From Microvenator marinus (GTDB lineage: Bacteria; Myxococcota_A; Bradymonadia; Bradymonadales; Bradymonadaceae), in assembly GCF_007993755.1 (NCBI RefSeq), contig NZ_CP042467.1, positions 1 to 64,000 of the forward strand: a stretch of 64,000 bases of DNA, written 5' to 3'. The first letter of the stretch is position 1. The number at the start of each line of letters is the position of its first letter. Below the pieces are notes generated by a model. It was not told the DNA's origin. It did no database searches and worked only from the letters and a program-made list of their open reading frames with translations. The translations under genes and the position numbers were made by a program. Shown here piece after piece: positions 19,767 to 36,799 of this stretch.

Positions 19767-20468
19767 GTGCTAAGCGTCTATGTCGTGAGCATGATTGTTG
19801 GGGGTGTGTTTGTTGCGCTCTCCGTTGCGTCAGGTTTGGGCGGCGATGCGGATGTCGATAAGGAGTTCGATAAAGATTTCGACAAGGACTTCGATAAAGA
19901 TTTCGACAAGGACTTCGATAAAGATTTCGACAAGGACTTCGATAAAGATTTCGACAAAGATTTCGACAAGGACGCTGGGAGTACTTCTCTGGTGTCTGCC
20001 GGAGATGGTGAAGTTGAGAAGGACTTGGAAGTTGCCCGGTATCGGCGATACAACCCATTTCTCAGTTTTAAGTTTTACACCTTCACGATGGCGTTCGGAG
20101 GCCTGACGGGCACGGTCCTCACCTTCCTTTGGGCAAGTGTGATCGGCGTGGCGCTGACTTCGCTCACAATGGGGCTTATAGCGGGCGTTGGCATGACTTA
20201 TACCCTTCACCTGGCGAATCGAAGTGTGGGAGGACGGATGCTCACCGAAAGAGATTACGCGGGGATCGAAGGGAAAGTGACACTCGATATTCCCGGCGAC
20301 GGATCTATGGGAAAAGTTAGGTTTCGCATGCGAGGACAGGTGGTGGAGATGCCTGCCATTTCTGAGGACGGCTCTCAACTCACGAGAAATACAGTCGTTT
20401 ATGTGGTTACGATGCAGGATGGCGTTGCGCGCGTCGTCACGTTAGACGAGTTAAGTAAACCGGTTTAG
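19767..20468 (+). CDS. NfeD-like membrane protein with DKDF repeats, 233 aa
   Basis: It starts at GTG immediately after the TerB-like stop. Residues 3-22 form a membrane helix. Residues 31-69 are a DKEF/DKDF tandem repeat. Two or three further helices lie at about 100-150. The C-terminal ~75 residues are beta-rich (GIEGKVTLDIPGDGSMGKVRF, VYVVTMQDGVARVV), like the OB-fold of NfeD proteins, which are usually encoded beside flotillins. Its place directly before two SPFH genes supports this. It is expected in the inner membrane, with the OB domain on the side where the flotillin core sits. The repeat is not part of any NfeD protein I know. Confidence 0.72.
   Translation: MLSVYVVSMIVGGVFVALSVASGLGGDADVDKEFDKDFDKDFDKDFDKDFDKDFDKDFDKDFDKDFDKDAGSTSLVSAGDGEVEKDLEVARYRRYNPFLSFKFYTFTMAFGGLTGTVLTFLWASVIGVALTSLTMGLIAGVGMTYTLHLANRSVGGRMLTERDYAGIEGKVTLDIPGDGSMGKVRFRMRGQVVEMPAISEDGSQLTRNTVVYVVTMQDGVARVVTLDELSKPV
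19857..19973 (+). repeat. 12-bp in-frame tandem repeat encoding DKDF units
   Basis: Nine full 12-base units and a partial tenth encode one DKEF, eight DKDF and a final DKD. GATAAAGATTTC and GACAAGGACTTC alternate through most of the array, giving a 24-base higher-order period. The third-position alternation suggests recent expansion of a two-unit block. Copy-number change would keep the frame. Confidence 0.95.
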
Positions 20469-23147: not shown

Positions 23148-25517
23148 CTATTCGGTGACGAACTCAACGTTTGATTTGAGCGTCCACGCCGAATCTTCCC
23201 CAATAGAAATCTTCACCCAATCACCTCGCTCCTCCATTGAACGGAGCATGGTTCCTGCGGAGTATCCCTTAACATCTCCTCGCACACTCGCGTGAGGTGT
23301 GGGGCCCGACCTAAACTCCACTTTGTCTTTTGTGATGATGACAGGCGCCACCGAGGTTTCGACCCATGACTTGGCCGTCCAGAGAGCGACAATCGCCAAA
23401 ATCATGAGGATAGGTGCCAGAATGAACGGCCTGAATGCTGGGCGCTTGCGTGCGAGCAAAAGAAGCGCGACGAGCATGCCCAAGGCCCCAAGTAGGGCGG
23501 CAGGCAGCGAGTTTTCGCCGAAACTCATGAAGGCGCGCCACCAGAATAGTTGGTCGTCGTGGCCTTCCAAAACTCTTCCAACCCGCGTGGATTGTATGGT
23601 GTTCAGGCGCACGATCTTGGCGATCGTTTCTTGGTTTGACCGAGTTGATGAGTCCCACGGGTCTTGCACCCAGGCGCGCTCTATCTCGAGCCTAGCCTTG
23701 CCCCAGTCACGGTCTTCTGCCGAGGCTATGGCCATTTGATGGTGTCCACTTGGTGCTTCTGCACGTGCTTCTTGGGGCACGAGCCCGAAGGCCAGCGCGG
23801 CAATTGCGAACTTTGCGAAAATGGATTTGGCTTCTGAATGAAGTCGCTGGAACGTGGAATCCGTGCTCTTGTCAGGGGCGAATCTCTTTTCCTCACAAAC
23901 TTTCAACACTTCAGCGATTATCTGGGCATCGTTGGAGTCGAAACTCGCGGAAGTTTCCAGGGTCTTGATGATACGATGGGTCGAAAGTGCGGCTCTATTG
24001 GTTTCGAGAATCTCGACGAGGAGTTCACCCACTGTATGAGAGAGATCATCCCAGCTCGTAGCCGTTTGAAGGGCCGCAATGAGCTCCTTTTGGCGAGCCT
24101 TCTTTCGGCGCAAAGGTTCCCCTTTTTCCCACCAACGTCTGGCGAAAGGTTCGAAGAGCAAGAGAAGAGAGATTAGGGAGAGAAGGGTGAGAGCGAGTCG
24201 CCAAACTAAGTTGTCTGCCAAACTTACTTGGCTTGAAGCAGCTTCGTCAGCTGGCTTTAGTTGCCCTAGAAGTTCATTGACCATCTCTTCGGCCTTATTC
24301 GAAGTTGAAGAAAGTGTGGATTCGCGAACCTCTTGCGGCGCTTTCGCGGAAGGAGGAAGGGTTCCCGGAGCGACCGAGAGCAAAATGGGTTGGGTCTCAA
24401 GAGTCTCATAAGTAGCCTTTTCGGGATTGAAGAAGGACCATGTCATACTTGGGATTTCAACTCTTCCTTCTTCAAGTAGGAGAAGGGGAATCTCAACTCT
24501 CTTTTCGCCGTAAATCTTTAAGTTTCGGACCTCTTTTTTGTGAGATTCGTTGGAGTCTAATGCCCTTAGTTTCGGGATTTGTGGGAAATCCGGCAGTCGG
24601 AGTTTTGTGGGGAGACCGTTGCCACGAGCGGTGATCCGAAGCCGAATGGTGTCTCCGACTTTAGCCGTTCTGGTATCGACGCTGACATCGAGGTTCCATT
24701 CCCCTACATTTCCCTCGTAGAACGAGGTCGGGGCGCCCGGTGGCAGCGGTAGAACATCAATCTCGAGAGGTTCAGACTTGATGCGAACTTCTTCGCGCCT
24801 GAAGAACGAACTTTGCACGAGTGGAAGTTCTAGGGGCTCAATCGTGGTGCGACCCGCGCGCAGCGGAAACAACGCATAGGATCGCAGGGCAATCTTGTTG
24901 ACTCTTCGACTGCCTGCGGAAACCACCTGACGTGAGTTTAGCTGGCTTGAGAGGTCTTCGACCCAAAACTCATCGAGTGGTGGTTCATCCGGAGGCATGG
25001 GTTGTACGTCTCGGAGACGAACGTCCAAGTAAAGGTGGTAGTGCAAGGATAGTTGCTCTCCAACGTAGACTTGGCGAGGAGGGTCTATTTCGCTCTCAAC
25101 CCATGCTTGTTCGTTGCGAGTCGTCTTCGGAGAATTGCCGGGGTCCACGACTTGGTAAGATACGGAAGGAGCTCTTAATATCTCGTCGCCTACTTTTCCT
25201 TCAACTCCAGCAATCTCAAAACGACCTTTGGTTTGAGGTTGAATCGCCCATATGTAGGAAATCGAACGGGTAGAGATCCCATTGATGTTCACAAATCTCG
25301 GGGATTGTGTGCGTTGAAGTACTCTCGCCTCACCAAAATCCGGCAGCGTTGTCAAAGCCATATCTCCATTGCTCTTCGTGGCAATGGTGACTTCGTACCT
25401 GAGGGTTTGGCCCACCTCTACGATATTCGGGTCGATGGAGGCGGTCATCGAAGATTGCGCAATCACAAGGCCTGGAAGGGCCCAGAACATGAGGATAAAA
25501 AAGAGTCGCAAACGCAT
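23148..25517 (-). CDS. BatD-BatE fusion protein, 789 aa
   Basis: Residues 1-20 are a signal peptide (LRLFFILMFWALPGLVIAQS). Up to about 430 it matches BatD: repeated Ig-like beta domains with GQTLRYEVTI, RPIxx-like sections and VYVGEQLSLHYHLYLDV. A membrane helix (WRLALTLLSLISLLLLF) and a cytoplasmic helical part follow. At about 565-588 there is a second signal-like stretch (FAKFAIAALAFGLV, then ARAEA). After it come a TPR-like segment (HHQMAIASAEDRDWGKARLEIERAW), two more membrane helices and a C-terminal SH3-like domain (VEFRSGPTPHASVRG), as in BatE. The ATG at 25517 overlaps the batBC stop by one base (TGATG). The frame is continuous. Confidence 0.85.
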   Translation of the reverse strand: MRLRLFFILMFWALPGLVIAQSSMTASIDPNIVEVGQTLRYEVTIATKSNGDMALTTLPDFGEARVLQRTQSPRFVNINGISTRSISYIWAIQPQTKGRFEIAGVEGKVGDEILRAPSVSYQVVDPGNSPKTTRNEQAWVESEIDPPRQVYVGEQLSLHYHLYLDVRLRDVQPMPPDEPPLDEFWVEDLSSQLNSRQVVSAGSRRVNKIALRSYALFPLRAGRTTIEPLELPLVQSSFFRREEVRIKSEPLEIDVLPLPPGAPTSFYEGNVGEWNLDVSVDTRTAKVGDTIRLRITARGNGLPTKLRLPDFPQIPKLRALDSNESHKKEVRNLKIYGEKRVEIPLLLLEEGRVEIPSMTWSFFNPEKATYETLETQPILLSVAPGTLPPSAKAPQEVRESTLSSTSNKAEEMVNELLGQLKPADEAASSQVSLADNLVWRLALTLLSLISLLLLFEPFARRWWEKGEPLRRKKARQKELIAALQTATSWDDLSHTVGELLVEILETNRAALSTHRIIKTLETSASFDSNDAQIIAEVLKVCEEKRFAPDKSTDSTFQRLHSEAKSIFAKFAIAALAFGLVPQEARAEAPSGHHQMAIASAEDRDWGKARLEIERAWVQDPWDSSTRSNQETIAKIVRLNTIQSTRVGRVLEGHDDQLFWWRAFMSFGENSLPAALLGALGMLVALLLLARKRPAFRPFILAPILMILAIVALWTAKSWVETSVAPVIITKDKVEFRSGPTPHASVRGDVKGYSAGTMLRSMEERGDWVKISIGEDSAWTLKSNVEFVTE

Positions 25518-28500
25518 CACCAATCTCTCTCGATATAAAGATTAGGCATGTTTTCGAGGGCTTTTTTCATCTGGAAGTTGTGGTCGGTCTCTTCGAGCGA
25601 CTTTAGAATGTCTTCGACACGATCCATCTCTGGGTTTTCAGAGGTATCCGTCGGTTGCGGGTTCATTTGCGCCTCTTCCCTGGGCTCTTCTTCTCCTTCT
25701 TCGGGCTGAGCAGATTCTGATTCTGCCTCTTCGTCTTCTTTGTCTCCATCCTCTTGGTCTTGTTTGTCTTGCTGGTCTTGCTGGTCTTCGTTGTTCTCCT
25801 GTTCCTCTTGTTCTTGCTGCTCCTCAGATTCAGATTTGTCCTGATTCTCCTGAGGCGGCTGGGAAGGATTCAATTGAACCAAATGGTAGAAGTCTTGTTC
25901 GCCCCGAACGCGCAGGAGCGCTGACTTTTCGTCGAGCTTCTCGGTCAAAAGAAGGGATCTCAGCGGAAGTGCATCTGGAGTTTGTTCTTCCGGTCGCACA
26001 CCGGCGTGAAGAATCTGGTCACCACCTGCTGACAGGTGGTCGATTTGGATGTCGGAAAGGTAAGGGTCTTCTTGGTCCGCTGGAAACGCAGTGAGAGCGA
26101 CTCCAACGTGAAGTTTGGGGTCGTCTTCCTTGAGGCCTAGCGAGAAATAGTCGTCGTCGGATTCACACAATCTTAGATATCGATGAACCGGCAATTGCCC
26201 GTCGAGCTCGGCGGCAGATTCAGGCAGGTCATTTTCTTCATAACGGTCGTCTCCAACGTCGCAGGGTAGAAAGTGGTAGGTGTCCAATTTGTATGGACCT
26301 TGCTCATCATCGGATACACCTCCAACGCGAACCAGAAGGGTCGTGGCCGACGAGATGTCCCGAATGCCTGCCGTCAGGTATCCAGAATCCTCAACGCCCT
26401 CTGAAAGCACCTGCATGGTCTCGGCGTCCATAATCTGAAGAGTTGGAGCAGGAGGAGTTCCTCGTTCTTTGTCCTCAGAAACGCTTACATCAGCGAAGAA
26501 CGAGTCGCCGGGGCCGACCTCGATCTTGAACCAATCTTCATCGCCCGGGCAAAGATGAGCTGGACCGGTCTCCGGCGTGATGACGCTTGCATTTTGGGGT
26601 GAATCATTCGGTTCTGTGGCCTCTTGAAGTGCCTGACAAGGCGGTATGGTCTCTATCTCAAGGGAGTAGCGAAAGTCCCGTCCTGGAGAAGAGGAAACCT
26701 TCAGTAGGACTTGGCTTTGAGCACCCACAGTGGTCTGGTCGACCAAGACTCGGTCGAGTGAGCGCGCCGTCTTTTTGGAAGCTATGTCGTTGGCAAGTGT
26801 CTCTTCGGAGCCTTGGTCCACGGCGACCACGTTTTGTCCGTTAGATGAAAAGAGTGAAATCTGTGCGTCTTCCGGTTTTGTGAGAAAGGGCTCTTCTTCC
26901 GTAAACAACTCTCGAAGTGGCTCAAAGTTCGCCCGTACAGAAACCCGCGTTCCGGCCATGGCTTGGATGCGGAACCAATCATCGTCTTCTGCGCAAATCA
27001 CCGCTTTGGGTACTTTGAGTTCTTCCAGCGCCGTAGCAGATAGCGGCTCATCGTTCTCTTCAAACTCATCGTCGATCTCGCTGCAGGGCGGATACATCTT
27101 GAGAAAGGCCGCTTCGAGGTTCTTGCGTGCGATCGCGCGTTCTTCGTCGGTTGCCGCAGCAGGGTTAGCGTCAGCAACAACCAAGGCGTCTTGGAAGAGT
27201 TTGTAGGCATCGGACCATTCCTGGCGCGCACCCAAGACAAGTCCGAGATTGATCGACGCATCAAAGACCAAGGAAGGATTGTCGCTTTCTAGTGCTCGGG
27301 CGAGCTTTTCGCGCGCTTCATCCTGGGCTTCGGTCAGATGCTGAAGCGTGCCAATATTGTAGTCTAGTTCAGGAGATGAGAGCACTTTGGTCTCGATACC
27401 GTCGAGCTCTGCTAGTGCTTCGGTAGGATTGCCTTGAGCGAGTAGCTCCTTGGCGTTTTCTACTTCTGAGACCTTCGAGCGTAAGGCGTCTTCACAGCCC
27501 GTCAGAATGATGAGGACTGACGCAACACCTGCGAGTCCAAGCTTTCGCCGACGCTCACTGAGTAAGATCCCGAAACATAGAAAGAGCAAAGCTGGCAAGA
27601 GGAAGAAGTAGTAGCGCTCGCGGTAGCGCTCTTTAAGAAGCGTCTCTAACTCGGTTTCCTCGAGCTTCTCGATTTCTTCAAGAATAGCGTTCGCAGCTGA
27701 GTTCTCGCCGTCAAAGTAGATATAAGCTCCGCCCGTGATCGTGGCGATTTCCTTGAGCATGTCCTCGTCAAGTTTGGACCTGACGATCTCTCCCTTTCGG
27801 TCGCGCTGAAAGCCAGACCTAGTGCCATCGGAGCGAATCGAAGGGATTCGCTCTCCACTGCGGGTTCCGATGCCTAGGGTGAGAATTCTAATACCGTGCT
27901 CCTTGGCAAGTTGCGCGGCGGCAATAGGGTCCGACTCGTGGTCTTCACCGTCGGAAATGAGAACAATCACTTGGTTCTTGGCTCTCTTCATGCTTAGAGA
28001 GTCATCCCCATCTCTTGACTTTCCGGTCAGAAGTTCAACTGAATCAGAAATGGCGCGGCCAAGCGACGTGCCACCCACCGGCATATGGTTCGGGTTCATC
28101 TTGTCGAGATAGAAGCGAATCGCAGAATAGTCGGCGGTGAGAGGCGATTGTGCGAATGAGATGGCGGTAAAGAGGACCAGAGCCACGCGGTCACCGCCCA
28201 GTTGGGTGAGGATGGTCTTGATTTCGCGTCGTGCCGCCTCGAGTCGGCTCGGGACAACGTCCTGAGCCAGCATACTTTTGGAGATATCGATGGCAAAAAC
28301 GAGGTCAACACCGGTTCGTTTAACCGGCTTGTTCGTCTGTCCCCACTGAGGTTGAGCTGCAGCTATGGCAATGAAGATAGCGGCAAGTACGAAGGAGATC
28401 TGCTTTAGCCTTCGTCGCTGAGGGCTGAACGTTGCGTACATCGACTCGAGGGCGCTGCCAGATTGGATTCTCAATCGGACCCGCTGCGTCCAACGCGAGT

Positions 28501-28576
28501 GAAAGACGAGTGCTCCCAACATGATAAACAGTGAGACCGGCACTAAGAGGAGTGTTTCAAGATGTTCAAATTGCAT
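25517..28576 (-). CDS. BatB-BatC fusion protein, 1019 aa
   Basis: Residues 1-335 are BatB: two membrane helices, a VWA domain with MIDAS D97-I-S-K-S101 and a matching GGTS and SDGED, then a third helix. At 345-361 the sequence is RRRKLGLAGVASVLIILTGC, a lipoprotein signal with C361. TPR units follow (about 370-490). Three PPC-like beta repeats then carry the FEEND/DDWF, EPND/DEDWF and YEEND/DDDYF signatures. A Gln/Glu/Asp-rich tail (about 880-960) ends in a short helix and a final D-W, the usual BatC ending. The ATG at 28576 has an AGG upstream and lies seven bases after the batA stop. A longer upstream frame overlaps batA and is rejected. Confidence 0.87.
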   Translation of the reverse strand: MQFEHLETLLLVPVSLFIMLGALVFHSRWTQRVRLRIQSGSALESMYATFSPQRRRLKQISFVLAAIFIAIAAAQPQWGQTNKPVKRTGVDLVFAIDISKSMLAQDVVPSRLEAARREIKTILTQLGGDRVALVLFTAISFAQSPLTADYSAIRFYLDKMNPNHMPVGGTSLGRAISDSVELLTGKSRDGDDSLSMKRAKNQVIVLISDGEDHESDPIAAAQLAKEHGIRILTLGIGTRSGERIPSIRSDGTRSGFQRDRKGEIVRSKLDEDMLKEIATITGGAYIYFDGENSAANAILEEIEKLEETELETLLKERYRERYYFFLLPALLFLCFGILLSERRRKLGLAGVASVLIILTGCEDALRSKVSEVENAKELLAQGNPTEALAELDGIETKVLSSPELDYNIGTLQHLTEAQDEAREKLARALESDNPSLVFDASINLGLVLGARQEWSDAYKLFQDALVVADANPAAATDEERAIARKNLEAAFLKMYPPCSEIDDEFEENDEPLSATALEELKVPKAVICAEDDDWFRIQAMAGTRVSVRANFEPLRELFTEEEPFLTKPEDAQISLFSSNGQNVVAVDQGSEETLANDIASKKTARSLDRVLVDQTTVGAQSQVLLKVSSSPGRDFRYSLEIETIPPCQALQEATEPNDSPQNASVITPETGPAHLCPGDEDWFKIEVGPGDSFFADVSVSEDKERGTPPAPTLQIMDAETMQVLSEGVEDSGYLTAGIRDISSATTLLVRVGGVSDDEQGPYKLDTYHFLPCDVGDDRYEENDLPESAAELDGQLPVHRYLRLCESDDDYFSLGLKEDDPKLHVGVALTAFPADQEDPYLSDIQIDHLSAGGDQILHAGVRPEEQTPDALPLRSLLLTEKLDEKSALLRVRGEQDFYHLVQLNPSQPPQENQDKSESEEQQEQEEQENNEDQQDQQDKQDQEDGDKEDEEAESESAQPEEGEEEPREEAQMNPQPTDTSENPEMDRVEDILKSLEETDHNFQMKKALENMPNLYIERDW

Positions 28577-28583
28577 CACAACC

Positions 28584-29633
28584 TCACGGAAACCGTCGTA
28601 AAAAGGTGTGGCGAAGTAAGAACGCCAGAACAAGCGCGGCCAAGGCCCAGAGCAGTAGAGGACGAAAGAGTTCTTCCGGGTCCACACTCGTCGTATCTCT
28701 GATACGGGTACGTTCGAACTCGTTGAGGATCTCGTGCAAATCCCGTTTGAGTGTTTCGGCGTCGGCCGCATGGAAGTAGCGACCTGAAGTGCCTTCGGCG
28801 ATCTCTTTGAGCAGCTCCGGATTCACCGGGAATTCCGTCTCCCTGTAAACGATTGTCCCGGTAAAAGGATCGCGACCTGCTGGAACTAGAGTTGGACCCT
28901 TTCGTCCAACCAAAATGGGGTAGACCTTGATGCCGAGAGATTTGGCCATTGTGGTGGCCTGCTTAGGAGAAATGTTCCCCCCGCGTCGGTCACCATCTGT
29001 GATTAGAATGAGAATCTTGGTTCGTGCGTCGGAGTCTTTTAAGCCCGAGATGCCCCGTCCCATCGCATTTCCAATCGCTGTACCACCTTCGTCGATATCA
29101 CCGAGCTTGAGTGAATCGAGCATGGAGATAATCGTTCGTCGATCGAGCGTAAGTGGGAATTGAAGGAACGCATCTTTGGCGAAAACAACCATGCCGATGC
29201 GGTCGTAATCTCGCGTCGAGACGAACTCTTGGAGAGTATTAACGGCCGCTTCGAACCTTGTGAGCGGGTCTTTGCCCATACGATTGAGGGAACGAACCTC
29301 GTCTTGGGTCTGGTCGATTGCGCGCATAGAGCCCGACATGTCGAGGGCTAGAAAGATGTCGATTCCTTCGACTTCTACTTCTTCTGGCTCCACGAGCTGT
29401 GGTCTCGCAAGCGCAAGAATACAGAGCGTCAGACTCAAAATAGTCAGGATTTCCGGAAGTGGGTCCAAATATCTCTTCCATCCGCGGGTTTGGGCACTGA
29501 GCTGACTCACACCCGTGAATCGCACTGATTGAGTGCGTTTCCGAGCCAGCTTTGGCACCAAGAGGAGTGCCACCATCACTGGGACCAGCACCAAGAGGAG
29601 TAGGGCGGGCCAGAACTCAAATTGGAAGTTCAT
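28584..29633 (-). CDS. batA: BatA, membrane VWA protein, 349 aa
   Basis: The N-terminal membrane helix pair (about 8-26 and 60-77) is followed by a VWA domain with MIDAS D98-M-S-G-S102, GGTAIGNAMG and ITDGD, then a third helix near the C-terminus (LLLWALAALVLAFLL). This is the classical BatA layout: the VWA domain lies on the periplasmic side of the inner membrane. The start overlaps the previous stop by ATGA, and batBC follows after seven bases. BatA-E proteins have been tied to aerotolerance and stress in Bacteroides and Leptospira, but the molecular role is not settled. Confidence 0.9.
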   Translation of the reverse strand: MNFQFEFWPALLLLVLVPVMVALLLVPKLARKRTQSVRFTGVSQLSAQTRGWKRYLDPLPEILTILSLTLCILALARPQLVEPEEVEVEGIDIFLALDMSGSMRAIDQTQDEVRSLNRMGKDPLTRFEAAVNTLQEFVSTRDYDRIGMVVFAKDAFLQFPLTLDRRTIISMLDSLKLGDIDEGGTAIGNAMGRGISGLKDSDARTKILILITDGDRRGGNISPKQATTMAKSLGIKVYPILVGRKGPTLVPAGRDPFTGTIVYRETEFPVNPELLKEIAEGTSGRYFHAADAETLKRDLHEILNEFERTRIRDTTSVDPEELFRPLLLWALAALVLAFLLRHTFLRRFP

Positions 29634-30556
29634 GCCGCCTCCTCGGTCGCTGCAGTTTCAATGGGCTTCGTAAGCTCTACCACGGTGAAACATCGCGTGA
29701 GCGTTTCGTTCGCCTGAGTATCCGTGGGCAGATAGCCGCCAAACTTCACGAGGTCGCAGTGCTCAAGGATGCGTTTGATGTCAAGAAGCTCAAGTCCTCT
29801 TGGCCACTCGACGGACTCAAGCCTCTCGAGAATCTCTGTCGTTGTAAGCTCAGTACCCGGAAAACCGAATCGTCGGCCGAGGTATTCGCGCAGAGCCTCG
29901 GACATTCGGACGTAGAAAAGCATGTGCAGGCCATCGCTCAAGAGCGTGTCGGACTGCAGCGCGGACAGCTTTTCTAACGCGACTTCGTGCGCGGGGCGGG
30001 CAGGCACGTAGATTTCTTCATCAAGACGCTGGCGCCGACGCGAATAAAAACCGATCAACCCCCCGAGAAGTGCAACCAGAGTACCTCCTGCGACCCAAAG
30101 CAAGGTGTAATCATCTTGCCAGACGCTTGCCAGAGGTTGTGGGGGTGAAAAGGTGGGTTCTTCGTTCTCGAAGTTAGAGAGGACCTTGGCCTTGAACTCC
30201 GGCGTTGAGAGCTCTTCTATCTGATCGCTCTGATCGACGACTTTAAAGGTCAGTGGTCCGAGCGTTCCAATTCCAGGCCGAAAGAGTCCGTACTTCAGCT
30301 TGATTTCGGTGCGTAAGCCCGACTCGCTCGGTACGGTCGTCTGTGTCTGGTCAATGGGAACAAATCTCGAGGAGCCCAGTTCTTCGGGCATTACAAGAGT
30401 TGTGTCCAATGGATGTTGAATCTCCACAACCAGGTCTACAATTTCTCCCGCGCGCCAGGAGTCCTTTTCGGGCCATTGGGCTTGAATCTTAGAGGTCTGA
30501 CCAAGCGCCATTGCCGGCAAAAGCAGGAGCAACACTATCATTGCTTTAATGGACAC
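29630..30556 (-). CDS. Bat-operon membrane protein with N-terminal signal peptide, 308 aa
   Basis: The start is GTG at 30556, which has AAGGAGG six bases upstream; an upstream in-frame ATG at 30595 is less likely. A signal peptide (IVLLLLLPAMALGQ) leads into a periplasmic Ig-like domain with conserved W and Y positions (SWRAGEIVDLVVEIQHP). One membrane helix lies at about 151-171, followed by an Arg-rich cytoplasmic helical domain (RMSEALREYLGRRF, ELTTTEIL). It fills the position of the DUF4381/BatX-like protein found between DUF58 and batA in other operons. It overlaps both neighbours (11 bases upstream, 4 downstream). Confidence 0.78.
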   Translation of the reverse strand: MSIKAMIVLLLLLPAMALGQTSKIQAQWPEKDSWRAGEIVDLVVEIQHPLDTTLVMPEELGSSRFVPIDQTQTTVPSESGLRTEIKLKYGLFRPGIGTLGPLTFKVVDQSDQIEELSTPEFKAKVLSNFENEEPTFSPPQPLASVWQDDYTLLWVAGGTLVALLGGLIGFYSRRRQRLDEEIYVPARPAHEVALEKLSALQSDTLLSDGLHMLFYVRMSEALREYLGRRFGFPGTELTTTEILERLESVEWPRGLELLDIKRILEHCDLVKFGGYLPTDTQANETLTRCFTVVELTKPIETAATEEAA

Positions 30557-31424
30557 GTTTCGACCTCCTTCTGAAATAGGCCACCAATGGCTCAACGTAG
30601 TTGGAGCCCGTGGTTATTCGAATTGGGTCAATTCGGAGTTTGCGAAACATCTGGTCGCGCGCAAAATTGCGGTCCAGGACTGCACGGTCGTAAATCTCGC
30701 GCACTCTCACGTTGGACGTATCTACCAGGACGATCTCGCCGGACTCGGGGTCTTCGAAGGGCACGAGTCCGAGGTCCGGAAGAGATTCTTCCATCGGGTC
30801 TGAAATCACGACCGGAATGACTTCGTGTTTCTGGTTAACCAGATTGAGAGTCTTTTCGAACCCTGAGTCTAGAAAGTCGGAGACCAGAAAAACCACTGCT
30901 TTTTTACGATGAACCTTGAGCAAGAACTCAAGAGCGCTCTGGGTATGGGTCAGGTGCCCCTGAGGACTCGTGTTCAGGATCTCAGTAATGACTCGGAGTA
31001 CGTGTTTTCGTCCCTTTTTAGGTGGGATAAACGTCTCAATCTGGTCAGTATAGGTGGCGAGTCCAACGCGGTCGTTGTTCTTAACCGCCGTGAACGCCAG
31101 AAGGGCTGCTATCTCGGCGGCGGTCGCAAGTTTAAGCTTTTCTCGGCTGCCAAAAGCCTGGGAGCCTGAGGCATCAACCAGCAAAAAAACCGTCAGTTCC
31201 CGTTCCTCTACAAATTGTTTGACGAACATTCCGTTCATACGCGCAGAAACGTTCCAGTCGATGACGCGGATGTCGTCTCCGGGCTGATATTCTCGGACCT
31301 CAGAAAAGTCCATACCTCGCCCTTTGAACACGGAGTGATACTCACCCGCGAGCTGGTCGTTCACCGCTCTCTTCGTAGCGATTTCTAGCCGTTTAACAGC
31401 TTCGATCAGGTCTGGAGGTAGCAT
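30546..31424 (-). CDS. DUF58 protein of the Bat operon, 292 aa
   Basis: It carries the DUF58 signature VREYQPGDDIRVIDWNVSARMNG (about 42-64). A degenerate VWA-like fold follows (FLLVDASGSQAFG, then VVFLVSDFLDSGF) in which D-A-S-G-S is retained. No membrane segment is present, so it is a cytoplasmic partner, usually acting with the MoxR ATPase encoded immediately before it (three-base gap). A paralogue lies at 36804. Confidence 0.9.
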   Translation of the reverse strand: MLPPDLIEAVKRLEIATKRAVNDQLAGEYHSVFKGRGMDFSEVREYQPGDDIRVIDWNVSARMNGMFVKQFVEERELTVFLLVDASGSQAFGSREKLKLATAAEIAALLAFTAVKNNDRVGLATYTDQIETFIPPKKGRKHVLRVITEILNTSPQGHLTHTQSALEFLLKVHRKKAVVFLVSDFLDSGFEKTLNLVNQKHEVIPVVISDPMEESLPDLGLVPFEDPESGEIVLVDTSNVRVREIYDRAVLDRNFARDQMFRKLRIDPIRITTGSNYVEPLVAYFRRRSKRVH

Positions 31425-31427
31425 GGT

Positions 31428-32435
31428 TTAGGGTACTTCAATGGTCTCAAGCATTTCGTGAACAATATCTTCGGAAGTCACCTCTTCGGCCTCAGCCTGG
31501 AAGCTGAGGACGACACGGTGTCTGAGAATGTCCGGCGCGACAGACTTGATGTCCTCGGGCGTGACGTAACCACGGTGGTTGATGAACGCGTGAGCACGCG
31601 CTGCCAAGTTGAGGAAGATCGTCGCACGAGGGCTTGCGCCATACTCCAGATAATTCTCGATGCGATTGAGTCCGTACTCTTTGGGCTCACGCGTGGAAAC
31701 GATCAAATCGACGATGTAGTCCCTGAGTTTCTCATCGACAAAGATTTTACGAATGAGCGATTGCGCCGAGAGCACTTCCTCTGGACCAGCCACTGGTGTC
31801 ACAGAGGGCATCTCGATTTGGTCGGCTATGCGGTCCATAATTTGACGCTCTTCGCTTCGAGTGGGGTATCCCACCTTGAGCATCAACATGAAACGGTCTA
31901 CCTGGGCCTCAGGAAGGGGATAAGTGCCCTCCTGCTCAATCGGATTTTGAGTAGCTAAAACCAGGAACGGGGAGGGCAGCTTATACGTCCGGTCCCCAAG
32001 GGTTACCTGCCTCTCCTGCATGGACTCGAGCAAAGCTGATTGCACTTTAGCGGGCGCGCGGTTGATCTCGTCGGCGAGCAGGAAGTTTGTGAACACTGGC
32101 CCTTGTCGGGGCACAAAAGTCCGCTCAACTTGGTCGTAGATCATGGTGCCGACCAAGTCGGCAGGGAGCAGGTCAGGTGTGAACTGAATCCTGCTAAAAT
32201 CCATGTGGAAGCAATCAGATAACGATTTAACTGTGAGCGTTTTAGCGAGTCCGGGTACGCCCTCTAGCAACACGTGGCCGCCGGTCAAGAGTCCAATCAT
32301 GAGCCTTTGGACCATATAGTCCTGACCGACAATGACCTTTGAGAGTTCTTGTTGAACCCGTCCGACAAACTCCGACTTTTCTTTAATTTCAGCGTTAAAT
32401 TCTTCGGTTTGCGACATTTCAAAAAGCTCCGACAT
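31428..32435 (-). CDS. MoxR-family AAA+ ATPase 1, 335 aa
   Basis: Walker A is EGVPGLAKT, Walker B with sensor is LLADEINRAPAKVQSALLESM, and ATQNPIEQEGTYPLPEAQVDRF is the MoxR hallmark. The C-terminal lid (GASPRATIFLNLAARAHAF, HRVVLSFQAEAEEV) is complete. MoxR ATPases work with VWA/DUF58 proteins as chaperones that mature or assemble other proteins. The rnhA stop is only 13 bases before its start, so the operon may be read from the rnhA promoter. Confidence 0.93.
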   Translation of the reverse strand: MSELFEMSQTEEFNAEIKEKSEFVGRVQQELSKVIVGQDYMVQRLMIGLLTGGHVLLEGVPGLAKTLTVKSLSDCFHMDFSRIQFTPDLLPADLVGTMIYDQVERTFVPRQGPVFTNFLLADEINRAPAKVQSALLESMQERQVTLGDRTYKLPSPFLVLATQNPIEQEGTYPLPEAQVDRFMLMLKVGYPTRSEERQIMDRIADQIEMPSVTPVAGPEEVLSAQSLIRKIFVDEKLRDYIVDLIVSTREPKEYGLNRIENYLEYGASPRATIFLNLAARAHAFINHRGYVTPEDIKSVAPDILRHRVVLSFQAEAEEVTSEDIVHEMLETIEVP

Positions 32436-33905: not shown

Positions 33906-35789
33906 ATGTCGGTAGAATCTGAACATTTGAGGAAAATTGAGGCGGCGGTCAAGCGGCTTGAGCTTCGTGTGAAAACTCAGCGTATGCTCGAGTCTTTGAC
34001 CACAGGCCTGGCTCTTTATTTGCTGCTCTCTGCACTTTCGCTCGTGATGTTCAAGACTGGATGGATGACACCGAATGAGTTGTGGACGCTCCTCGTCGCT
34101 TGTGTGGTGGTGCCGTTCGTCATGGTTCTACGGGCGTGGCTAAGCCCTGTGGATATGATCGATTTGGCGCGCCGAATCGACCTGAGTCATCACCTTCATG
34201 ACCGACTTTCAACCGCGCTGAGCCTTGCCAAAGGTGATTTGGACGCGTTTGGGCGCGCTCAGATTAAGGACGCTGCTAGGTTTGTGGATAGCGTGGACTT
34301 AAAAGTGTCGGCGCCGTTTCGTTCACCTCAAGATGCTGTTCTTCTAGGCGTCATCTTTGGCGTGTGTGTGTTTCTCTTCCTTCTCAATCCTCCTTCTCAT
34401 CAGCACGAGCTGCCTCCTCCGTTTGAGGTAGTACACGAAGAGGTGTTGGACCAAGCCACCGTCACCGTTGAGCGAGAACGCATAGAGGCGCTTAAAGAAG
34501 AGCTCAAGGACATCGACGACCCAGCCACTCAAGAGGCTCTGAAGGAACTCGAAGATTTGCTGACTGAGGTGGAGAACCGAAGCATCTCTCGACGTGAGTT
34601 TCTGGAGCGTTTGAGCGAGATTGAAGAGCGTCTTTTTGAGAAGCAAGACGAGAAGATGAATGAGCTGGCTGAGGCCCTAAAGGAGGCCGCTGAAAAGCTT
34701 GAAGAAACTGCGAAGGAAGACTTGGAGAAGTCTCCTGAGGTCAAGAAGCTCGTCGATGCGCTCAAAAAGAAGGACCTTGCGAAGGCGGCAGAAGCGGCTG
34801 AAGAACTGGCAAAGAAGCTCAACAATGACGAGATGTCCCAGAAAGACTTGGAGCGACTCGCCAGTGTTTTAGAGAAGTTTTCTGACCTCATTGATCCCGA
34901 AGATCCTCGGCTGCAAGAGTTGATGAAAGAGAATGAGGAACTCATCCGAAAGTTGGAAGATCTCTTCGACCAGGGAAAGCTCTCGGACAAAGAGAAGGAG
35001 CGTCTCAAGAAGCTCAAGCAGGATCGGGACGAAATGGAGCGAGGTAACGCCCAGAAAGGGAAGATGACGTCTCGCGAGCTCAAACAGCTTAAGCGCAAGA
35101 CCGAGGAGATGGCCGAGACTGCAAAGAAGGCGGCCGAAGAGAAGAAAGAGAACGGCAAAAAGGGGGAGAAAGAAGGGGAGGAGAAGTCTTCTGACTTTCG
35201 AAATGAGGCAAGCCGTAAGGCCGAAGAGGTGAAACGGACTCTTGAGGAAGGCGCAGAAGAACAGGAAAAGGCTGAAGCCAGAAAGATGGCACAAAAGCAG
35301 CTCGAAGAACTCCGCGAGGCGATGCAAAGACAACAGTCTCAGGGCGAGAGCGATGAGAAGTCCGAAGAACGCGCCGAGCAGATGAAGGACTTTCTCGAAA
35401 GAGCCAAGGGGGAGGGCGGCAATGCTACGAAGAAAGAGAAAACTGGCGAAGGCGGGGAGGATGGTTCGGACCAGGAGGGATCCAAAGATACTGAAGCAAA
35501 GGCCTCAGATTCGTTCAATCTCGGGGAAGGTGACCGCGAACTCGGGGAAGAGACTAAGGTCGACTCAAAGGCGAAAGATGAGAATCTAAGCGGTCGGGAC
35601 GCCAAGGGCGCATCGAAGTCGGAGATTATCAAGGCAGCGAGCGAAGAAGGTTTCGCCACGACCGAATACAAAGATGTGTTTGTAGACTACGAGTCTGTTG
35701 TAGAAGAAGTGATGGAAAAAGAGAAAGTACCGCCCGGGTACAGATACTATGTGAAGCGATATTTTCAATTGATACGTCCTCAAGAGTGA
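33906..35789 (+). CDS. Membrane protein with long coiled-coil domain, 627 aa
   Basis: Two or three membrane helices lie at about 25-70 and 140-160. They are followed by roughly 400 residues of Lys/Glu-rich coiled coil with low-complexity stretches, and a short conserved C-terminal region (VPPGYRYYVKRYFQLI). Such proteins stand before moxR in MoxR/DUF58/VWA operons of several phyla, and this C-terminal pattern is common among them as I recall; I cannot run a search. The coil would lie in the cytoplasm or periplasm as a scaffold. GAGAGG precedes the ATG. The coding region ends eight bases before moxR 2. Confidence 0.75.
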   Translation: MSVESEHLRKIEAAVKRLELRVKTQRMLESLTTGLALYLLLSALSLVMFKTGWMTPNELWTLLVACVVVPFVMVLRAWLSPVDMIDLARRIDLSHHLHDRLSTALSLAKGDLDAFGRAQIKDAARFVDSVDLKVSAPFRSPQDAVLLGVIFGVCVFLFLLNPPSHQHELPPPFEVVHEEVLDQATVTVERERIEALKEELKDIDDPATQEALKELEDLLTEVENRSISRREFLERLSEIEERLFEKQDEKMNELAEALKEAAEKLEETAKEDLEKSPEVKKLVDALKKKDLAKAAEAAEELAKKLNNDEMSQKDLERLASVLEKFSDLIDPEDPRLQELMKENEELIRKLEDLFDQGKLSDKEKERLKKLKQDRDEMERGNAQKGKMTSRELKQLKRKTEEMAETAKKAAEEKKENGKKGEKEGEEKSSDFRNEASRKAEEVKRTLEEGAEEQEKAEARKMAQKQLEELREAMQRQQSQGESDEKSEERAEQMKDFLERAKGEGGNATKKEKTGEGGEDGSDQEGSKDTEAKASDSFNLGEGDRELGEETKVDSKAKDENLSGRDAKGASKSEIIKAASEEGFATTEYKDVFVDYESVVEEVMEKEKVPPGYRYYVKRYFQLIRPQE

Positions 35790-35797
35790 GAGTTTAG

Positions 35798-36799
35798 ATG
35801 TCTGAAGCGGCTGTGGAGAAGGAAGTCGAAGCGTACAAAGCTGATTGCACCAAGATGCTCGACGAGGTCGGCAAGATGATCGTGGGTCACCGCGAGATCA
35901 TCCAGGGGGTGATCATCGCGATGCTCTCGGGTGGCAACGTACTCCTCGAGGGGGTGCCGGGCCTTGGTAAGACCATGCTCGTCAAAACCTTGTCGGACAC
36001 GATGGGGCTCAAATTCTCGAGGATTCAGTTCACTCCCGACCTTATGCCCAGCGATATCTTGGGAACGATGATTCTGGCGGAATCGGCTGATGGCGCCCGC
36101 GAATTTAGGCTCGAGAAGGGCCCGATCTTCTCAAATATCGTACTTGCCGACGAGATCAATCGCGCCACTCCGAAGACCCAATCGGCGATGCTCGAGTCCA
36201 TGCAGGAGCGCAGCGTAACGATTGGTAAGGAGACGATGAAGCTTGAGGATCCGTTCTTTGTGTTGGCCACACAGAACCCTTTGGAGATGGAAGGCACCTA
36301 TCCTCTTCCCGAGGCGCAGCTTGACCGATTCCTTTTTAAACTCCGTGTGGAATTCCCGAATTTGGAAGAACTACACACGATTATGGATCGCACGACCGCA
36401 CGCGAGCAGCCTACGGTATCGGAGGTTATGGGTAGAGAAAGGCTTCTTCAGATGAAGATGTTTGCTCGTGATGTTCCGGTGGCGAGGCACGTGCAGGACT
36501 ATGCGCTTCGAATCCTCCAGGGAACGCATCCGGACAACGCGTTGGCATCGCCCAAGACGAAAAGATTTGTCAGGTTTGGGTCGTCTCCGCGCGGCGCGCA
36601 AGCGATTCTAGTGGCGTCCAAAGTAAGAGCACTGATGGATGGACGGTTCAACGTCTCAGCTGAGGACGTGCGTGCTTCGGCGCTCCCCGCCTTGCGACAT
36701 CGTGTAATCATGAACTTCGAGGGTGAAGCGGAAGGGGTGTCAACTGACGAAGTGATTCATGAAATCATCAAGAATACTTCCGAAAAAGCGAAGGCCTGA
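35798..36799 (+). CDS. MoxR-family AAA+ ATPase 2, 333 aa
   Basis: Walker A is EGVPGLGKT, Walker B LADEINRATPKTQSAMLESM, and ATQNPLEMEGTYPLPEAQLDRFLF is diagnostic. It is a close paralogue of the ATPase at 31428 and leads a second, plus-strand operon. It is followed after four bases by its DUF58 partner. Likely role: ATP-driven chaperone for VWA-domain membrane proteins encoded downstream. Confidence 0.93.
   Translation: MSEAAVEKEVEAYKADCTKMLDEVGKMIVGHREIIQGVIIAMLSGGNVLLEGVPGLGKTMLVKTLSDTMGLKFSRIQFTPDLMPSDILGTMILAESADGAREFRLEKGPIFSNIVLADEINRATPKTQSAMLESMQERSVTIGKETMKLEDPFFVLATQNPLEMEGTYPLPEAQLDRFLFKLRVEFPNLEELHTIMDRTTAREQPTVSEVMGRERLLQMKMFARDVPVARHVQDYALRILQGTHPDNALASPKTKRFVRFGSSPRGAQAILVASKVRALMDGRFNVSAEDVRASALPALRHRVIMNFEGEAEGVSTDEVIHEIIKNTSEKAKA

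Follow-up and report, generated by a model that had tools for sequence, protein, structure and literature searches.

In Microvenator marinus, BatB and BatC are encoded by one gene whose product carries a lipoprotein signal peptide in its interior, at the junction of the two parts. Judged from the sequence, the product would be a precursor that is lipidated and then cut by LspA at Gly360|Cys361 into a four-helix BatB and a lipoprotein BatC, a reading to which we give a probability of about 0.77. The gene lies on the minus strand at 25517-28576 of the window (the whole 64,000-nucleotide stretch of DNA analysed) and comprises 1019 codons plus a stop, with an ATG start and zero internal stops. The fusion that a preliminary description had proposed is therefore a single stop-free frame, which is also found in 16 members of the family and in 27 genomes of the class, this genome included, distributed over four families (f1, f2, f3, and f5). 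Since the open fused frame recurs without stops in these 16 and 27 members, a sequencing error or missed stop is ruled out.

The gene sits in a Bat operon with the order MoxR, DUF58, a 321-aa membrane protein, BatA, BatB-BatC, and BatD, all on the minus strand. The DUF58 and MoxR genes (PF01882 and PF07726) occupy 30546-32435, and batA (28584-29633; PF07584 BatA plus a VWA domain; NF047508, E 5.2e-51) ends 7 bases upstream of batB-batC. On the other side, batD (23148-25523; PF13584) overlaps the stop of the fusion in the sequence TGATG, and its product has an ordinary signal peptide at the N-terminus. The same type of gene order, MoxR-DUF58-BatA-BatB-BatC-BatD, is known from Bacteroides, where BatB and BatC are encoded by separate genes, whereas here they form a single chain with an internal lipobox. 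Two further loci of the window lie on the opposite strand: a second MoxR gene nearby, beside a coiled-coil membrane protein (33906-36799), and a membrane protein with a run of FDKD tetrapeptide repeats (19767-20468) adjoining two flotillin-like genes, these names being given by eye.

The BatB part (residues 1-341) shares with the Bacteroides Bat proteins (BatA-BatE) the VWA fold and its flanking helices. Its top Foldseek matches are the solved BatB structures 3ibs and 4jdu (36-37% identity, target TM-score 0.93-0.94), and its best NCBIfam model is NF047506 BatB, with an E of 2.7e-37 that is below that model's exception-type cut-off. The VWA domain (residues 91-252, 27821-28306; PF00092, E 1.9e-15) lies between N- and C-terminal helices, which the AlphaFold model places at residues 6-36, 52-73, and 323-338, the third of them corresponding to 27563-27610. 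Its MIDAS motif reads DISKS, and in an alignment of the fused class members the DxSxS residues (D97, S99, and S101) and T170 are invariant. With the internal signal peptide retained as a fourth helix, the predicted BatB product would span residues 1-360 (27497-28576).

The predicted mature BatC lipoprotein (residues 361-1019, 25520-27496) is homologous to the free BatC proteins of relatives with split genes (E 4e-30 against L108 and 2e-28 against L127). It begins with a TPR region at about residues 370-494 (27095-27469), where each of the 23 members scanned has matches to TPR families at E values of up to 0.1, and where the model shows helical repeats. This is followed by a region of tandem beta-sandwiches (26057-27094) resembling PPC and collagen-binding domains: Foldseek matches it to ColG s3a/s3b and the ColH CBD, and PF04151 matches weakly in 2 of the 23 members. 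The repeats contain cysteines in the pattern C..ED..END..C.DDDW, and a large open frame elsewhere in the genome (G000, 1.727 Mb) has stretches weakly similar to them. The chain ends in an acidic, E/Q/D-rich tail (25520-26056) with a BatC-type C-terminus (MDRVEDILKSL...ERDW). Many complete free BatCs likewise have an acidic, Q-rich tail closing in KDW, KNW, or, as here, RDW, with MEDY taking this place in f6 and f7.

At the junction, the third BatB helix is followed by four basic residues (R342, R343, R344, and K345), a hydrophobic stretch of 13 residues, LGLAGVASVLIIL, and the lipobox LTGC at residues 358-361 (27494-27505), the predicted site of Lgt and LspA. The internal signal peptide, RRRK + LGLAGVASVLIIL + TG, thus covers residues 342-360 (27497-27553), and its pattern is found in 27/27 class fusions. 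The codons and the AlphaFold model bear out the anatomy given in the preliminary description, with separate helices at 323-338 and 344-359 and a pLDDT below 50 at 360-367, so that the break falls exactly at the lipobox. With ordinary Lgt/LspA substrates the segment shares an n-region, an h-region, and a [GAS]C lipobox at the end of the hydrophobic core; it differs in that ordinary lipoproteins carry their signal at the N-terminus, whereas here it is internal, behind three membrane helices. Since the signal lies at residues 342-361, away from the N-terminus, we file the protein as an internal-signal variant, apart from ordinary lipoproteins.

Conservation of the lipobox is strict and exceeds what chance would give. 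Cys361 is invariant in all 27 class fusions, and the residue before it is always small (G in 24, A in 2, and S in 1), which supports the earlier suggestion that an export signal was retained inside one chain. Across 23 diverse aligned sequences, no column between G283 and A387 other than C361 is invariant, and the fused clade has a summed tree length of 13 substitutions per site. The stretch around it drifts in both length and sequence, the spacer from the third helix to the signal ranging from a few to about 35 residues. The -3 residues of some fusions (A, S, T, N, and P) are looser than the consensus, which is that of E. coli, and this genome's own candidate lipoproteins are also variable at that position. 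Given this strict conservation, the word relic, which the preliminary description had used of the lipobox, is not supported. The box would be such an inherited relic if the fourth hydrophobic segment were an uncleaved transmembrane helix that simply takes BatC to the periplasm. A helix by itself would settle the topology, but the cysteine and the small residue before it are kept while the helix sequence and the spacer drift, and we consider this explanation unlikely. Conservation of Cys361 for a disulfide, a palmitoyl-type modification, or a similar role, and not as part of a lipobox, appears very improbable. Several further cysteines are indeed conserved in the BatC part; these, however, sit within folded beta domains, whereas C361 ends a hydrophobic core, is preceded by G, A, or S in 27/27 sequences, and matches the N-terminal cysteine of free lipoproteins.

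The background frequency of such sites was estimated in a 464-kb sample of the same genome (372 crude gene calls), which holds only six internal lipobox-like matches. The batB-batC site alone among these six combines a basic n-region with a polar mature part; the others, inspected by eye, resemble helix interiors or an Fe-S motif. This genome encodes both LspA (PF01252) and Lgt (PF01790). Three separate Lgt-like loci were recorded (G000:C1:348629, 1202015, and 3686041), of which the one at 3.686 Mb adjoins lspA and is matched in two pieces. An internal and usable lipoprotein signal in BatB-BatC is well supported by its conservation.

Beyond the class, the survey took in a total of 70 fused genes spread over many families of the phylum; many come from fragmented assemblies, and the gene calls are our own. 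All 70 have a signal-peptide-like segment at the junction. A lipobox ends this fourth segment in 31 of them, namely the 27 class members and four genes from family f14, so that lipobox fusions fall in at least two separate lineages; in f14, fused and split genes share the same lipobox. Nearly all of the remaining 39 resemble signal peptidase I sites, as in LALPMQAHA|LPSW and IPPPPAWA|QSAD, where the cut was chosen by a matrix for which 58 N-terminal signal peptides of BatD served as the training set. A plain A-x-A expression had been tried and was dropped in favour of this matrix, as the second transmembrane helix also matches it often. In the 39 fusions the median matrix score is 7.0 for the segment versus 0.8 for the second helix and -0.4 for the third (p of about 1e-10 and 6e-13, respectively, with kinship ignored), and in the lipobox fusions it is 0.4. 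The comparison is not circular, since the signal peptidase I label was assigned solely by the absence of a lipobox. Five of the 39 score below the cut-off, and each has an A-x-A-like site by eye. Since the fusions without a lipobox have a signal peptidase I site in its place, the shared property is a cleavable site and no particular cysteine; that these fusions replace the box and do not lose it also speaks against an uncleaved helix. The fused BatB-BatC proteins of the phylum are probably a true polyprotein family, processed at the same internal position by housekeeping signal peptidase I or II according to lineage.

Relatives with separate genes offer a second comparison. Fusion and separation have interchanged about 11 times along the BatB tree, and at least 7 of these changes fall on well-supported branches. 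The preliminary description had likened the junction exactly to the signal of a free BatC, and this holds in part. Homologous split arrangements were found; lipoboxes occur in the free BatCs L108, L111, L125, L127, L139, and L141, with canonical ones in L108, L111, L127, L139, and L141, and in BLAST alignments the BatC part matches L127 and L080 from the cysteine exactly onward, cysteine to cysteine in L127. Other free BatCs have a signal peptidase I site (in f4, f18, f42, and others), and some have neither. The likeness fails for families f6 and f7 of the same class, in which 16 split batB/batC pairs mostly overlap by ATGA: there the residue before the cysteine is T, M, Q, I, L, V, or K, a non-canonical lipobox, and these relatives were rejected as a lipobox match. 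The starts of these free BatCs (L071-L086) read ...GFGPFTC, GPMMC, or NPMLC, and most keep the cysteine, which is lost in two genomes (G041 and G042). Either their lipobox is atypical or the segment is an anchor that stays uncut; that these relatives seem to manage with a non-canonical box is a point in favour of an uncleaved helix. A canonical cleavage site is found in 65/70 fused versus 18/43 split genes, a contrast that falls short of significance when relatedness is allowed for (7 independent pairs) and that was dropped as a statistical test.

The ATGA overlap of split relatives, which couples batB to batC, might suggest that BatC is also made alone from an internal translation start before the signal peptide, the fused frame being incidental. 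This is scarcely credible, as in-frame ATG, GTG, and TTG codons are absent between codons 330 and 398 here, the spacer lacks a start altogether in 27 of the 70 fusions, and few Shine-Dalgarno-like sites occur; an internal start was rejected as a general route on these grounds.

In BB0173, a related VWA protein from the same type of locus, the VWA domain is periplasmic and the helices number three (PMC5700661). By analogy, BatB would insert three helices and keep its VWA domain periplasmic; its C-terminus, marked by RRRK, would then lie in the cytoplasm. A further crossing would then be needed for a periplasmic BatC, and the internal signal may supply it: the lipoprotein signal peptide would re-enter the translocon and export the BatC part, after which Lgt would add diacylglycerol to Cys361 and LspA would cleave between Gly360 and Cys361. 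This would place a BatB of four helices next to a periplasmic BatC held by its lipid anchor, the two in equal amounts. It is in this sense that we infer the topology of the fusion protein, its lipidation, cleavage, and stoichiometry, and the benefit of equal dosage. Counted against this polyprotein reading are the looser -3 residues, the non-significant contrast of fused and split genes, and the need for Lgt and LspA to accommodate a lipobox behind three helices, for which we know of no precedent. An aspartate or glutamate directly follows Cys361 (+2) in 20/27 fusions, versus 6/39 candidate lipoproteins in the sample of this genome. In E. coli, an aspartate after the lipidated cysteine favours retention in the inner membrane; by this rule, BatC may remain at the inner membrane beside BatB.

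Fusion of the two genes has been reported before. In Leptospira biflexa, as here, the VWA part of BatB and the TPR part of BatC are joined in a single gene, and the main text of that report mentions neither a lipoprotein nor a signal peptide for the fusion (PMC3557215). Searches of the open-access literature turned up neither a Bat fusion described as having a cleavable signal inside it nor a polyprotein described as being cut at a lipobox; one related paper concerns N-terminal lipoboxes (PMC12636315). What appears to be new is the presence of a cleavable signal inside the fusion and its alternation between signal peptidases I and II, and the interpretation first put forward for this gene is, overall, partly supported. 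The FbcH precursor of Bradyrhizobium yields two proteins, cytochrome b and c1, from one gene, by a signal peptidase cut at an internal signal. FbcH uses signal peptidase I, whereas here signal peptidase II and a lipid are predicted, though many of the related Bat fusions resemble substrates of signal peptidase I.

If the proposed processing is true, this would be, to our knowledge, the first case of Lgt and LspA acting inside a multi-pass membrane protein to yield two proteins. It would mean that both enzymes can act on signals preceded by several membrane helices, and hence that standard predictors, which look only at the N-terminus, would miss such lipoproteins. Since one homologous position appears to serve signal peptidase I in some lineages and II in others, the claim can be tested in many species. 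For the Bat system itself, BatC would work beside BatB as a periplasmic protein in its own right, anchored to the membrane, and the fusion would be a simple route to equal numbers of a membrane protein and its lipoprotein partner.
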